Shown here piece after piece: positions 2,172-5,813 of a stretch of 13,449 bases of DNA. The stretch is from assembly GCA_947598455.1 (NCBI GenBank), contig CANQFI010000039.1, positions 1 through 13,449 of the forward strand, written 5' to 3'. Position numbers and translations under genes: made by a program. Numbering within the stretch: the stretch's first letter is position 1; each line of letters begins with the position of its first letter. The stretch is from an uncultured Bacilli bacterium (lineage in GTDB: Bacteria; Bacillota_I; Bacilli_A; RF39; UBA660). The notes beneath the pieces were generated by a model. It did no database searches, had not been told where the DNA came from, and was given only the letters and a program-made list of their open reading frames with translations.

Positions 2172-4592
2172 CTATTTAACAACAATATTAACTATTTTAC
2201 CTTTAACAACTATTACTTTAACAACTTCTTTACCTTCCATAAACTTAATTACATTAGGTTCAGCCATTGCTTTTGCTTTAACGCTTTCTTCATCTTCGTC
2301 AACCATAATTGTAATAGAAGCTCTTAATTTACCATTTACTTGAACTCCAATTGTTTTTTCATTATCAATTGTCTTAGCTTCATCATAAGTTGGCCACTTA
2401 CTATTACATATTGGTTCATAACCGATTTGTTCATTTAATTCTTCAGTAACATGAGGTGCTAAAGGATTTAATAATGTTAATAATACATGATAATCTTCTT
2501 TTGTAATATTTTCCATATCATCATAAGCATTTGCTAAAATCATTAAAGTAGAAACTACTGTATTATAAGCCATATGTGTTAAATCATATTCAACTTTTTT
2601 AATACTCTTATGAATTAAACTCTCTAAGTCTTTTGAGTATTCTTTACCTTCTACTACTTTATCTTTTAATCTAATTACTTTGTCAATAAAACGTTTACAT
2701 CCTCTTAATGAATCAGTACTCCAAGGAGCATCCTGTTCATAATCACCCATAAACATTTCGTAAACTCTTAAAGTATCAGCTCCATATTCTTTAACAATAT
2801 CATCAGGATTTATTACATTACCTTTTGATTTACTCATTTTTTCATTATTAGAACCTAATACCATACCATGACTAACTCTTGTCCATATCATTTCTTTATT
2901 AGGTACTAAACCAATATTATATAAGAATTGAACCCAGAATCTTGCATATAATAAGTGTCTAGCTGTATGTTCCATTCCCCCATTATACCAATCTACTCTA
3001 TTCCAATACTTCATCGCATCCATTGATGCAAACTCGTGTGTATTATGGGCATCCATAAATCTTAAGAAATACCAACTTGAACCAGCCCAGTTAGGCATTG
3101 TATCCGTTTCTCTTCTAGCTTTACCTCCACAACAAGGACAAGTTGTATTTACCCAATCAGTTATATTAGCTAATGGACTTTCCCCATCTTCTGTTGGTTC
3201 ATATTCCGCTACATCAGGAAGCAATAATGGTAAATCTTTTTCATCCATTGGTTGCCATCCACATTTTTCACAATAAATCATTGGAATTGGTTCACCCCAG
3301 AATCTCTGTCTAGAGAAAATCCAATCACGCATCTTATAATTATTTACAACACGACCAATACCTTTTTCTTCTAACATCTTCGTTAAAGCTTCTTTAGCTT
3401 CTTTAATACTCATTCCACTATATTCTTCAGAATTTATTAATCTAGCTTCTGGATTTTCTAAATAATCATATTTTTCATAAGCTTTTTCTCCTAAATTACC
3501 ACCAGTAATAACTTCAACTATTTCTAAATTATGAACTTTAGCATATTCATAATCTCTTTGATCATGAGCAGGAACTGCCATAACTGCTCCTGTACCATAA
3601 TCACCTAAGACAAAGTCTCCTAAATAAACTGGTACTTCTTTACCATTTACTGGATTAATTGCTTTAATACCTTTAACCTCAACACCAGATTTACCTTTAT
3701 TTAACTCTGTACGGTCCATATTAGATTTCTTACTAGTTTCTTCTATATAAGCTAATACTTCATCTTTATTTTCTACCCTTGGCATTAATTCTTTAATTAA
3801 TTTACCATCAGGTGCTATTACAAAGAAAGTAATACCATAAATTGTTTCTATACAAGTTGTAAATATTGAAAATTTACCACCACCAACGATATCAACATCT
3901 AATTCAACACCAGTTGATTTACCAATCCAATTTATTTGTCCTAATTTAACTTTTTCTGCAAAATTAGTATCATCTAATCCTTTTAATAAATCTTCAGCAT
4001 AGTCGCTCATTCTAAGCATCCATTGCGCTTTTTCTTTTTGAATAACTGGACTACCACAACGTTCACAAACACCGCCAGCTGCATCCTCGTTAGATAAAAC
4101 TGATTTACAAGTTGGACACCAATTTACTGGAATTGTACCTTTATAAGCCATTCCATGCTTATAAAATTGTAAAAATTGCCATTGTGTCCACTTATAATAC
4201 TCTGGATCAGTTGTTGAAAACTCTCTACTCCAATCAAAAGAGAAACCTAAACTCTTCATTTGATTTTTAAAAGTTACAATATTTTCTTTAACTGCTTCTT
4301 TAGGATGAATATGATTTTTTATTGCATATTGTTCAGCAGGTGCTCCAAAAGCATCCCATCCCATTGGATACAATACATTCATTCCTTGCATTCTTTTCAT
4401 TCTCGCAATTGCATCTTGCGCTGTATAACTTCTTACATGTCCAACATGTAAGCCAGATCCACTAGGATATGGAAATTCAACTAAGATATAATATGGTTTT
4501 TTAGTTTTATCACCATTCTTAGCTTCAAAAGTCTTATTATCATCCCAATACTTTTGCCATTTTTTCTCTATTTCATTAAAATTATATTCCAT
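2172..4592 (-). CDS. leuS: leucyl-tRNA synthetase (LeuRS)
   Basis: Class I aminoacyl-tRNA synthetase charging tRNA-Leu; about 806 residues, the usual bacterial length. Numbering here counts from a GTG three codons upstream of the chosen ATG. Seen: the HIGH-type motif HVGH (52-55), zinc-type Cys pairs CPTC and CERC (162-182) and CEKC with CPCC (444-491), an inserted CP1 editing domain (about 228-415) with GTGAVMAVPAHDQRD (336-350), the catalytic motif KMSKS (588-592), and an anticodon-binding C-terminus. The editing-domain threonine motif, TTRPDT in many LeuRSs, reads TTCIET (248-253); the Thr residues and the conserved Asp350 remain. The ATG at 4592 is preferred because the family begins near YNFxEIEKKWQ and AAAGAG lies upstream; GTG at 4601 is the alternative. 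It is the last gene of a T-box-controlled operon, 14 nt after the Nudix gene. Confidence 0.98.
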   Translation of the reverse strand: MEYNFNEIEKKWQKYWDDNKTFEAKNGDKTKKPYYILVEFPYPSGSGLHVGHVRSYTAQDAIARMKRMQGMNVLYPMGWDAFGAPAEQYAIKNHIHPKEAVKENIVTFKNQMKSLGFSFDWSREFSTTDPEYYKWTQWQFLQFYKHGMAYKGTIPVNWCPTCKSVLSNEDAAGGVCERCGSPVIQKEKAQWMLRMSDYAEDLLKGLDDTNFAEKVKLGQINWIGKSTGVELDVDIVGGGKFSIFTTCIETIYGITFFVIAPDGKLIKELMPRVENKDEVLAYIEETSKKSNMDRTELNKGKSGVEVKGIKAINPVNGKEVPVYLGDFVLGDYGTGAVMAVPAHDQRDYEYAKVHNLEIVEVITGGNLGEKAYEKYDYLENPEARLINSEEYSGMSIKEAKEALTKMLEEKGIGRVVNNYKMRDWIFSRQRFWGEPIPMIYCEKCGWQPMDEKDLPLLLPDVAEYEPTEDGESPLANITDWVNTTCPCCGGKARRETDTMPNWAGSSWYFLRFMDAHNTHEFASMDAMKYWNRVDWYNGGMEHTARHLLYARFWVQFLYNIGLVPNKEMIWTRVSHGMVLGSNNEKMSKSKGNVINPDDIVKEYGADTLRVYEMFMGDYEQDAPWSTDSLRGCKRFIDKVIRLKDKVVEGKEYSKDLESLIHKSIKKVEYDLTHMAYNTVVSTLMILANAYDDMENITKEDYHVLLTLLNPLAPHVTEELNEQIGYEPICNSKWPTYDEAKTIDNEKTIGVQVNGKLRASITIMVDEDEESVKAKAMAEPNVIKFMEGKEVVKVIVVKGKIVNIVVK

Positions 4593-4606
4593 TTTTTTCA
4601 CTCTTT

Positions 4607-5461
4607 CTAATTGTTATCTTTTAGCCATTCTACCATTTTTTCAGTAGCTTCTTTTCTATTCATTCCATCTAACATTTCTGAATTAACTAAAAGACCATCT
4701 GTAATTATTACTTTATCTTTCATTGCATATTCATAGGTTTTATGATGCAATCCATCTTTTATTTCTTTTAAAACAGTATCTTTATCTACCCATTCTACAC
4801 TAAATACTTCATCATCATCTAAGTTCTGTTCATTTTTATTTCCATCAAGTAATTTAAATAAAAATCCTGTACATTCTATATTAAAGTATTTATCTTTATT
4901 AAAAGCATAATAATGATGATTAATTTTTGGTAACTCTTTTAGTAGTTTTAACTTATTATAACCTGTTTCTTCTTCTACTTCTCTTAAAGCACAATCTAAA
5001 GGATTCTCATTATCTTTTATAGTTCCCCCTATAAATAATCTACCTCCTTTATCATGCCAATTTATTGTTAAATATTTATCATTATCTTCATCATAAACAA
5101 TTGCTACTATTGAATTCTTTTTATATTCATCTTCATGAGGTTTACCAGTTACTTCTTCTATAACTTGTTTAATTGCTAAATTATATCTCATTGCATAATC
5201 ATAATCTTCTTCATTATGTAAAGGTATCCCAACTCTATCTTCTTTAAGCGAACTATCAATATAAATAGGTAATTTATCATTATTTACTGGATTAATTGCA
5301 TACATATCTGTAAAACCATCTTTAAGATTAATATCTAATACATTACTAGAATTTAATACAATATAAGTAGCTCCAAATAATATATCTACTTCTTTAACTA
5401 ATATTTCTAATACCTTATCACTATTTTCTACTTTAAATTTAACTAATACTTTATTTTTCAT
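4607..5461 (-). CDS. Nudix hydrolase inserted in a LeuRS CP1-like editing domain
   Basis: A 284-residue chimeric protein. Residues 118-250 form a Nudix domain with a complete Nudix box, GX5EX7REUXEEXGU, from Gly146 to Tyr168 (REVEEETGY at 160-168), so pyrophosphohydrolase chemistry on a nucleoside diphosphate-X substrate is plausible. The flanks are not Nudix-like. Residues 18-101 resemble the LeuRS CP1 domain: LFGATYIVL, AINPVN (identical to LeuS), and IPLHNEEDYDYA, which keeps Asp86 at the place of the universal CP1 aspartate. Residues 257-283 (VNSEMLDGM, KEATEKM) match the CP1 segment after the insertion point. By eye, 11 of 23 and 11 of 27 residues equal LeuS. The Thr-rich editing motif is lost (LVKEVDI). 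There is no catalytic synthetase domain. The start codon lies inside the preceding gene (11-nt overlap), with a weak ribosome site, suggesting coupling. Function unknown: perhaps trans-editing, a regulator, or a Nudix enzyme using the CP1 shell for binding. Confidence 0.88.
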   Translation of the reverse strand: MKNKVLVKFKVENSDKVLEILVKEVDILFGATYIVLNSSNVLDINLKDGFTDMYAINPVNNDKLPIYIDSSLKEDRVGIPLHNEEDYDYAMRYNLAIKQVIEEVTGKPHEDEYKKNSIVAIVYDEDNDKYLTINWHDKGGRLFIGGTIKDNENPLDCALREVEEETGYNKLKLLKELPKINHHYYAFNKDKYFNIECTGFLFKLLDGNKNEQNLDDDEVFSVEWVDKDTVLKEIKDGLHHKTYEYAMKDKVIITDGLLVNSEMLDGMNRKEATEKMVEWLKDNN

Positions 5462-5813
5462 TTTCTTTGCCCCATTTTCTCTTTAAATAATGTCCATATC
5501 CATAATACATACTAAATATTAAAACTAATATAATTACAAAAGCTATTAATAATTTTACACCTATAAACCATCCTTTCGGTAATAAATTAATAACTGTTAT
5601 TGTAAAAGCTATAATAAAAGCATTAATAATAGAAATACCATTTAATAACTTACGATAATTCATTTTTTTCTTATTTAAATTAAATTTTTTAGTTAAAATT
5701 ACCAATTCTGATATTTTAGTATACTTTTCTTTTTTGAGCAAATCATCAAATATAAAATAGTATACAAAATACACAATTACAAAAATTATAAAAAAGAATA
5801 CTATATCAAACAT
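5451..5813 (-). CDS. small membrane protein, first gene of the leuS operon
   Basis: A 120-residue protein of unknown function. It has an N-terminal hydrophobic helix (about 4-22), a charged, Lys-rich stretch (26-54) ending in KKMNYRKLLNGI, and two more hydrophobic helices (about 57-78 and 84-103). A basic tail KRKWGKENEK follows, so three membrane segments are likely. The ATG at 5813 is preceded by GGAAGTGAG just after the T-run of the T-box terminator, so its translation depends on antitermination. The last 11 nt overlap the Nudix gene. The arrangement (T-box leader, membrane protein, Nudix/CP1 protein, LeuRS) implies a leucine-linked role, but nothing in the sequence marks it as a transporter. 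I know no named family for it. Confidence 0.8.
   Translation of the reverse strand: MFDIVFFFIIFVIVYFVYYFIFDDLLKKEKYTKISELVILTKKFNLNKKKMNYRKLLNGISIINAFIIAFTITVINLLPKGWFIGVKLLIAFVIILVLIFSMYYGYGHYLKRKWGKENEK

Follow-up and report, generated by a model that had tools for sequence, protein, structure and literature searches.

The whole stretch of DNA analysed here, the window, comes from a gut bacterium, is 13,449 nts long and carries on its minus strand (4607..5461) a gene for a free-standing protein of 284 aa, named nudcp, in which a Nudix domain lies inside the CP1 editing domain of leucyl-tRNA synthetase (LeuRS); it was identified from the open reading frame, Pfam profiles, sequence searches and a predicted model. 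The interpretation that we favour, and consider probable, is that nudcp is a CP1-Nudix module released from a LeuRS, in which editing has decayed and the Nudix site has been kept, most likely as a pyrophosphohydrolase made together with LeuRS under T-box control.

The LeuRS editing-domain profile PF13603 matched nudcp over three stretches (E 8.8e-20, 71.4 bits, curated cut-off 25) and the NUDIX profile PF00293 matched with an E-value of 2.9e-15; judged from these scores, the likeness to both domains is far above chance. No other profile exceeded its cut-off and the synthetase catalytic core is absent, as had been noted from the sequence-only reading; nudcp is thus a homolog of the editing domain with a CP1 barrel and is not itself a leucyl-tRNA synthetase. 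With sequence alone, a solved LeuRS editing domain was matched with an E-value of 1.4e-12; the match comprises the collinear stretches 7-40, 50-103 and 251-282, of which only the middle one was significant when the stretches were taken one by one. The N-terminal CP1 segment (residues 1-112; 5126..5461, minus strand), recognized by PF13603 and a model match, is an editing-domain barrel without the Thr-rich motif and without the GTG loop; its residues 1-40 are likewise CP1 by sequence and model match, which extends the earlier description. The Nudix domain follows (residues 113-247; 4721..5125, minus strand) and then the C-terminal CP1 segment (residues 248-284; 4610..4720, minus strand), recognized by the third collinear stretch and a model match. 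A recount gave the same local identities with the adjacent LeuS as the sequence-only reading had reported: AINPVN is identical at residue 55 of nudcp and residue 314 of LeuS, 11 of 23 residues match between nudcp 79-101 and LeuS 343-365, and 11 of 27 between nudcp 257-283 and LeuS 387-413. That reading implied that the flanks would form a CP1-like barrel around the Nudix domain; searches with nudcp matched LeuRS CP1 on either side of it, and in the predicted model a CP1 barrel surrounds the Nudix domain and matches LeuRS CP1 structures over residues 3-284. Compared with the CP1 editing domains of PF13603 (PDB 4k47, 2ajg), nudcp has lost the Thr-rich motif and the GTG loop and has about 135 residues of Nudix inserted. 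It resembles the Nudix hydrolases of PF00293 in its intact box and predicted fold, whereas its Nudix domain is nested within the CP1 barrel and theirs is free. To judge from structure titles, CP1 is the benzoxaborole binding site in solved LeuRS structures.

The gene belongs to an operon in which a T-box leader (RF00230; 5851..6032, minus strand; 98.5 bits against a gathering threshold of 93) precedes TM120, nudcp and leuS, an order common to the window and three related loci, L001-L003. TM120 (5451..5813, minus strand) encodes a small membrane-type protein, to judge from its hydrophobic sequence; the last 11 bases of TM120 are shared with the start of nudcp. The GTG start of leuS lies 5 nts past the nudcp stop; leuS (2172..4601, minus strand; TIGR00396, 931 bits) encodes a LeuRS with a mosaic identity profile and a Nudix-free CP1 of a type carrying the motif TTCIET. 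The specifier region of the T-box reads GAACUUG; CUU and UUG are both leucine codons, and we read the specifier as leucine in either frame considered. A scan with RF00230 also placed a T-box upstream at L001-L003 and L041 but gave none at L009; among 13 further loci, some with and some without Nudix, 11 had one, and L004 and L030 did not. A conserved 120-aa protein of the TM120 type stands immediately before nudcp or leuS in the genus, and no Pfam model matched TM120 above cut-off. A glycosidase gene, which we take to be of family 31, lies within 4 kb upstream of leuS at 43 of the 55 loci of Nudix-bearing LeuRSs with enough sequence and likewise in the window; the locus is therefore largely shared with those synthetases.

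Relatives of nudcp were sought among proteins and genomes. The protein search returned 37 relatives, including the free-standing P0002-P0014 and fragments of Nudix-bearing LeuRSs. The scan of genome contigs returned 291 related stretches; of the best 80 of the 291, 77 were LeuRS genes with a Nudix domain inside CP1, about 940 aa long when complete and in some cases truncated at a contig end, and three were the free-standing L001-L003. In the family of L001's genome, 186 of 291 sampled genomes matched at 1e-5, many through the CP1 of ordinary LeuRSs. Counted from the matches listed, 66 of the 291 carry a Nudix-LeuRS, a figure that includes three with shortened frames and leaves out G178, split across two contig ends. 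The close free-standing form was found in one of these genomes (G001) and a distant one in five (G011, G016, G037, G158, G268). Mutual exclusion of the free-standing and embedded forms was considered and set aside: 0 of 8 genomes had both, yet with the embedded form in 66/291 such an outcome would arise by chance in about one case in eight. The Nudix-LeuRSs, mostly from Bacilli MAGs, share with nudcp the CP1-Nudix-CP1 order and the insertion point, are 51-60% identical to it in 37 of the 42 rows aligned and 28-40% in the remaining 5, and, like the nudcp operon, have a T-box upstream in most cases scanned; they retain the synthetase core and the editing residues, both of which nudcp lacks. No name or description of the Nudix-LeuRS architecture, nor of a free-standing CP1-Nudix protein, was found in open-licence literature; the accessible parts of PMC3532385 and PMC11580382 are without this architecture, and those of PMC11580382 without the word "Nudix".

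The distant free-standing form (family B; L112-L116 in G011, G158, G016, G037 and G268) is a second CP1-Nudix family. No leuS was found beside it on the 5 stretches examined; a CYTH-like gene adjoins in 3 of the 5 and a cytidylate-kinase-like gene lies near it in G011, G158 and G037, Pfam having been run on the genes of L115 only. Two 265-aa proteins (L119:3845-4642 and L120:4469-5266) have a Nudix domain behind an N-terminus that we take to be ASCH-like, the match being limited to the Nudix part. P0026 (judged from its listed match), P0028 and P0035 are odd fusions in which part of this Nudix or CP1 is joined to sequence or domains of unrelated kinds, and are possibly artefacts of assembly or gene calling.

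Trees were built from the free-standing clade of nudcp (clade A, 6 rows standing for 14 proteins), Nudix-LeuRSs and family B: a quick one with 120 rows, taken from clade A (6), the Nudix-LeuRSs (84 of 87) and family B (30 of 120), and a careful one with 60 rows (6, 39 and 15, respectively) and 200 bootstraps. In both, clade A was a single clade inside the Nudix-LeuRSs and family B a single clade on a long branch; the clade enclosing A within the Nudix-LeuRSs had a support of 100/100, the trees carrying no inferred root and the nearest sister of A being ambiguous. The free-standing state needs two changes, and one change sufficed in 0 of the 200 bootstrap trees of the careful tree. CP1 being part of LeuRS, this is most simply read as two releases, and the CP1-Nudix module seems to have been released from LeuRS at least twice. 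Residues 1-104 of nudcp are 33-50% identical (median 45%) to 74 Nudix-LeuRSs, compared to 32% for the adjacent LeuS, and residues 249-284 are 31-49% identical (median 39%), compared to 33%. Since the N-terminal CP1 of nudcp is closer to the Nudix-LeuRSs, the adjacent LeuS was probably not its source. Descent from a Nudix-bearing LeuRS, one origin given in the sequence-only reading, is supported by the 66 genomes with such synthetases and by the nesting of clade A.

The fate of the two active sites was followed in an alignment of 77 rows (13 of clade A, 42 Nudix-LeuRSs and 22 of family B). Both catalytic Thr are present in 42/42 Nudix-LeuRSs, 1/13 A and 0/22 B, and the Arg after the Thr pair in 42/42, 1/13 and 9/22, respectively. 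In the window, the Thr-rich motif (TTRPDT in active editing domains) is replaced by L21-V-K-E-V-D-I27; the motif Asp is retained in 12/13 A and is Glu in 22/22 B. The equivalent of Asp342 is Asp in 42/42 Nudix-LeuRSs, Asn in 13/13 A and Ile or Asn in B, and A has 5 residues fewer than the Nudix-LeuRSs in their YGTGAIMAVPAHD strand, which is shortened in B as well (4 rows per group). The pocket itself is not erased: His82 is retained in 77/77 rows, Asp86 in 13/13 A, 42/42 Nudix-LeuRSs and 18/22 B, and the equivalent of Thr252, the last Thr of the motif, in 10/13 A (the window not among them) and 0/22 B. Asp86 corresponds to Asp345 of E. coli, the residue to which the amino group binds (Asp342 and Thr252 likewise follow the E. 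coli numbering); its retention beside the loss of the Thr-rich motif agrees with the earlier description. For comparison, a LeuRS-I with a disrupted editing domain is described in the accessible part of PMC9437257.

On the Nudix side, the exact box GX5EX7REUXEEXGU first noted in the sequence-only reading was recovered by a motif check at residues 146-168 (4958..5026, minus strand). G146, E152, R160, E161, E164, E165 and Y168 are present in 77/77 rows and G167 in 76/77. The exact box is also found in all of P0001-P0014, in 79 of 80 loci (L074 excepted) and in 118 of 120 family-B proteins among the matches listed. Pairwise Nei-Gojobori dN/dS values, rough at synonymous distances of about 0.3-0.9, were computed between the window and L001, L002 and L003, respectively: 0.14, 0.11 and 0.25 for the Nudix part (113-245), 0.29, 0.38 and 0.66 for the N-terminal CP1 (1-112), 0.26, 0.34 and 0.46 for the C-terminal CP1 (246-284), and 0.05-0.07 for leuS. 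Between L001 and L002 the values were 0.12 (Nudix), 0.19 (N-terminal CP1), 0.51 (C-terminal CP1) and 0.05 (leuS); here the N-terminal CP1 is near the Nudix part, which counts against the favoured interpretation.

The adjacent leuS pointed to a further process. Its best identity in 40-residue windows was taken against the 70 of 77 Nudix-LeuRSs longer than 900 aa: windows starting at 41-181 reached 92-98% and those starting at 421-601 reached 90-100%, those starting at 241-381, in CP1, only 38-65%, and C-terminal windows up to 68-88%. Its CP1 cassette (residues 224-416; 3354..3932, minus strand) thus differs from the CP1 of Nudix-LeuRSs with a nearly identical core. TTCIET was present in 120/120 nearest relatives of this CP1 among the matches listed (the 7999 closest candidates having been scored). 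Eleven TTCIET LeuRSs, hand-picked from 116 and including 2 from the clade of the window, had cores (190 residues before CP1 and 230 after) 83-96% identical to the nearest Nudix-LeuRS and CP1s 39-47% identical, while three pairs of TTCIET CP1s were 79-85% alike. The two CP1 types, with Nudix and TTCIET without it, alternate among LeuRSs with similar cores. The Nudix-LeuRS label has to change 11 times in a quick tree of the core (78 rows), starred branches forcing 7 or more of these changes, and 6 times in a second, narrower quick tree (54 of 99 rows), where 4 or more are forced. Stars are less trustworthy in quick trees with long rows; in both trees T_P0040, T_P0041, T_P0043, T_P0045 and T_P0052 fall in the clade of the window though labelled T, which raises the counts of the T and free-standing labels and leaves the Nudix-LeuRS label unaffected. 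We read these patterns as repeated exchange of CP1 as a cassette among LeuRSs. A control weakens this argument: Nudix-LeuRSs with cores 83-93% alike had CP1-Nudix regions only 53% and 55% alike (L122 compared with L035 and L041), so faster change of CP1 than of the core, by evolution or by exchange, occurs anyway.

Of 15 genomes in the genus, 3 carry the free gene and 3 a Nudix-LeuRS, the other 9 giving no match at 1e-20. The leuS of G303, G272, G177 and G305 is of the Nudix-free TTCIET type and overlaps TM120, which leaves no space for a relic of nudcp; in G306 a Nudix-LeuRS directly follows TM120. In G304, which groups with species having the free gene, about 80 nts between TM120 and leuS are a relic (L146, about 3919-4011; 93 nts compared to 847 in L003): 35 of the 36 bases from the nudcp ATG onward are those of L003, and so are 34 of the 36 that end just ahead of the leuS ATG. 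Both ends match and the middle is gone, so nudcp was once present in G304 and was lost through an internal deletion. With this relic and its absence from the same place in four other species, nudcp is dispensable. That it is the cassette displaced when LeuS took its present CP1 is not favoured by the four species without a relic; a history in which the gene was inserted after the swap and lost once takes fewer steps than one in which it was there at the swap and lost about four times (forks partly ambiguous), and parsimony in the genus leans toward later insertion.

Other origins were considered. No match at 1e-10 was found across 72,556 plasmid records, and a plasmid origin was set aside. A phage origin was rejected, its sole support being a partial match of 31% to the LeuRS editing domain in an unverified, unannotated Enterococcus phage record (L193, OR846593.1) that could be host DNA. 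Viral contigs gave a single distant match, on a 258-kb contig (L081) with a stretch 30% identical to nudcp 120-226, in the Nudix part only. PADLOC returned a weak Nudix-level match, PDC-S07, and membership of a defence system was not retained.

Combined, these results suggest the following sequence. A CP1 editing domain already carrying a Nudix insert would have become a gene of its own between TM120 and leuS; its editing site would then have decayed and its Nudix site stayed. A rise in uncharged tRNA-Leu would, through the T-box, lead to synthesis of the putative pyrophosphohydrolase together with LeuRS, and the CP1 barrel would serve as a scaffold, possibly as a docking or ligand-binding module. 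We infer catalytic activity, substrate and coupling to leucine starvation alike; we know of no activity for any member of the CP1-Nudix family. The likeliest substrates would be dinucleoside polyphosphates (ApnN) or, close to them in chemistry, RNA 5' ends that carry a cap or a triphosphate. ApnN are a by-product of aminoacyl-tRNA synthetase adenylate chemistry, and their production by LeuRS was not found in open-licence literature. The earlier proposal, hydrolysis of a nucleotide formed under leucine shortage, would fit the T-box operon as a candidate role. In the accessible part of PMC5389931, the tyrosine that sets ApnN specificity sits in the loop after the Nudix box; in nudcp, Tyr184 and Tyr185 lie 16-17 residues past the box in a region with no alignment through human Tyr87, and Tyr185 is present in 13/13 A, 40/42 Nudix-LeuRSs and 21/22 B. 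The best fold match to the Nudix domain was 2azw, listed as undetermined in that source, and Ap4A hydrolases, Ap6A hydrolases and MutT1 were among the fold matches of family B.

A Nudix-only profile matched best the Dcp2 decapping enzymes among solved structures (1.6e-8), followed by AvrM14, a MutT-type protein, CT771 and lupin Ap4A hydrolase; with MutT-type proteins and AvrM14 also matched, what similarity says about the substrate is weak. LeuRS CP1 binds the tRNA acceptor end. The Nudix domain might act on an RNA 5' end, possibly of a tRNA held by LeuRS or CP1, removing a triphosphate or nucleotide cap, and in Nudix-LeuRSs it would lie near the acceptor end. Dcp2 as the nearest solved structure and RppH among the top Foldseek matches speak for such a role, but the profile E-values are modest and common to Ap4A hydrolases and MutT-type proteins, and the GTG loop is lost; we consider it rather unlikely. 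It is doubtful that nudcp is instead a regulatory or assembly partner of LeuRS, its CP1 a decoy or dock and its Nudix domain a ligand sensor: the position immediately before leuS in the window and L001-L003, the 5-nt spacing and the conserved His82 and Asp86 would fit, but all 77 rows keep the metal and catalytic residues of the Nudix site, and leuS was not found next to family B on the 5 stretches examined.

Trans-editing, which the sequence-only reading had offered as one function, is disfavoured, and we regard it as very unlikely that nudcp clears Ile-, Nva- or Met-tRNA-Leu for a LeuS with a weakened editing site. The predicted barrel, Asp86 and the Thr252-equivalent retained in most of clade A agree with it, as do the TTCIET of the neighbouring LeuS in place of TTRPDT or TTRCDT and the isolated Giardia LeuRS CP1 reported to edit in the accessible part of PMC3532385. 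Against this, the Thr pair and the Asp342-equivalent are gone, the GTG loop has 5 residues fewer in the four A rows compared, the N-terminal CP1 evolves faster than the Nudix part, and the adjacent LeuS retains a full-length CP1; moreover, five species of the genus manage with a TTCIET LeuS and no intact nudcp before it, so this CP1 type does not need nudcp. Like nudcp, the trans-editing factors of the INS superfamily, AlaXp and DTD are separate genes related to a synthetase editing domain, but they are deacylases, whereas nudcp has lost the catalytic Thr pair and does not qualify as such a factor. In its accessible part PMC11295145 has five families and superfamilies of trans-editing factors, with INS, AlaXp and DTD named in section headings and no CP1-derived factor among those named there. 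At3g23145 of Arabidopsis, an IleRS editing-only fragment of 158 residues (PMC7564348), is likewise a free-standing CP1-type piece without critical residues, but it is from a plant and that source mentions no Nudix domain in its accessible part. Least probable of all is a functionless, decaying remnant of a copied or displaced domain, which the lost editing residues, the deleted copy in G304 and the absence from four further species retaining the TM120-leuS pair would suit; the intact box of P0001-P0014 speaks against it, as do the dN/dS values, which stay well below 1 for the window, L001, L002 and L003 and reach their minimum in the Nudix part.

Beyond the released pyrophosphohydrolase that we favour, we tentatively raise a speculative extension: the retired pocket with His82 and Asp86 might bind an aminoacyl group or amino acid and gate a Nudix domain that destroys a nucleotide signal of idle LeuRS, in a portable CP1-Nudix module moved in and out of LeuRS by cassette exchange in gut Bacillota and released at least twice, giving a leucine-starvation feedback independent of (p)ppGpp. 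The alternation of CP1 types points to wholesale exchange of CP1 between close synthetases. In nudcp, a proofreading domain of an aminoacyl-tRNA synthetase has turned into the carrier of a different enzyme, apparently through two releases, in which the Thr pair was lost and the Nudix site retained in parallel, and the function of the Nudix insert in LeuRS becomes testable on a small separate protein.
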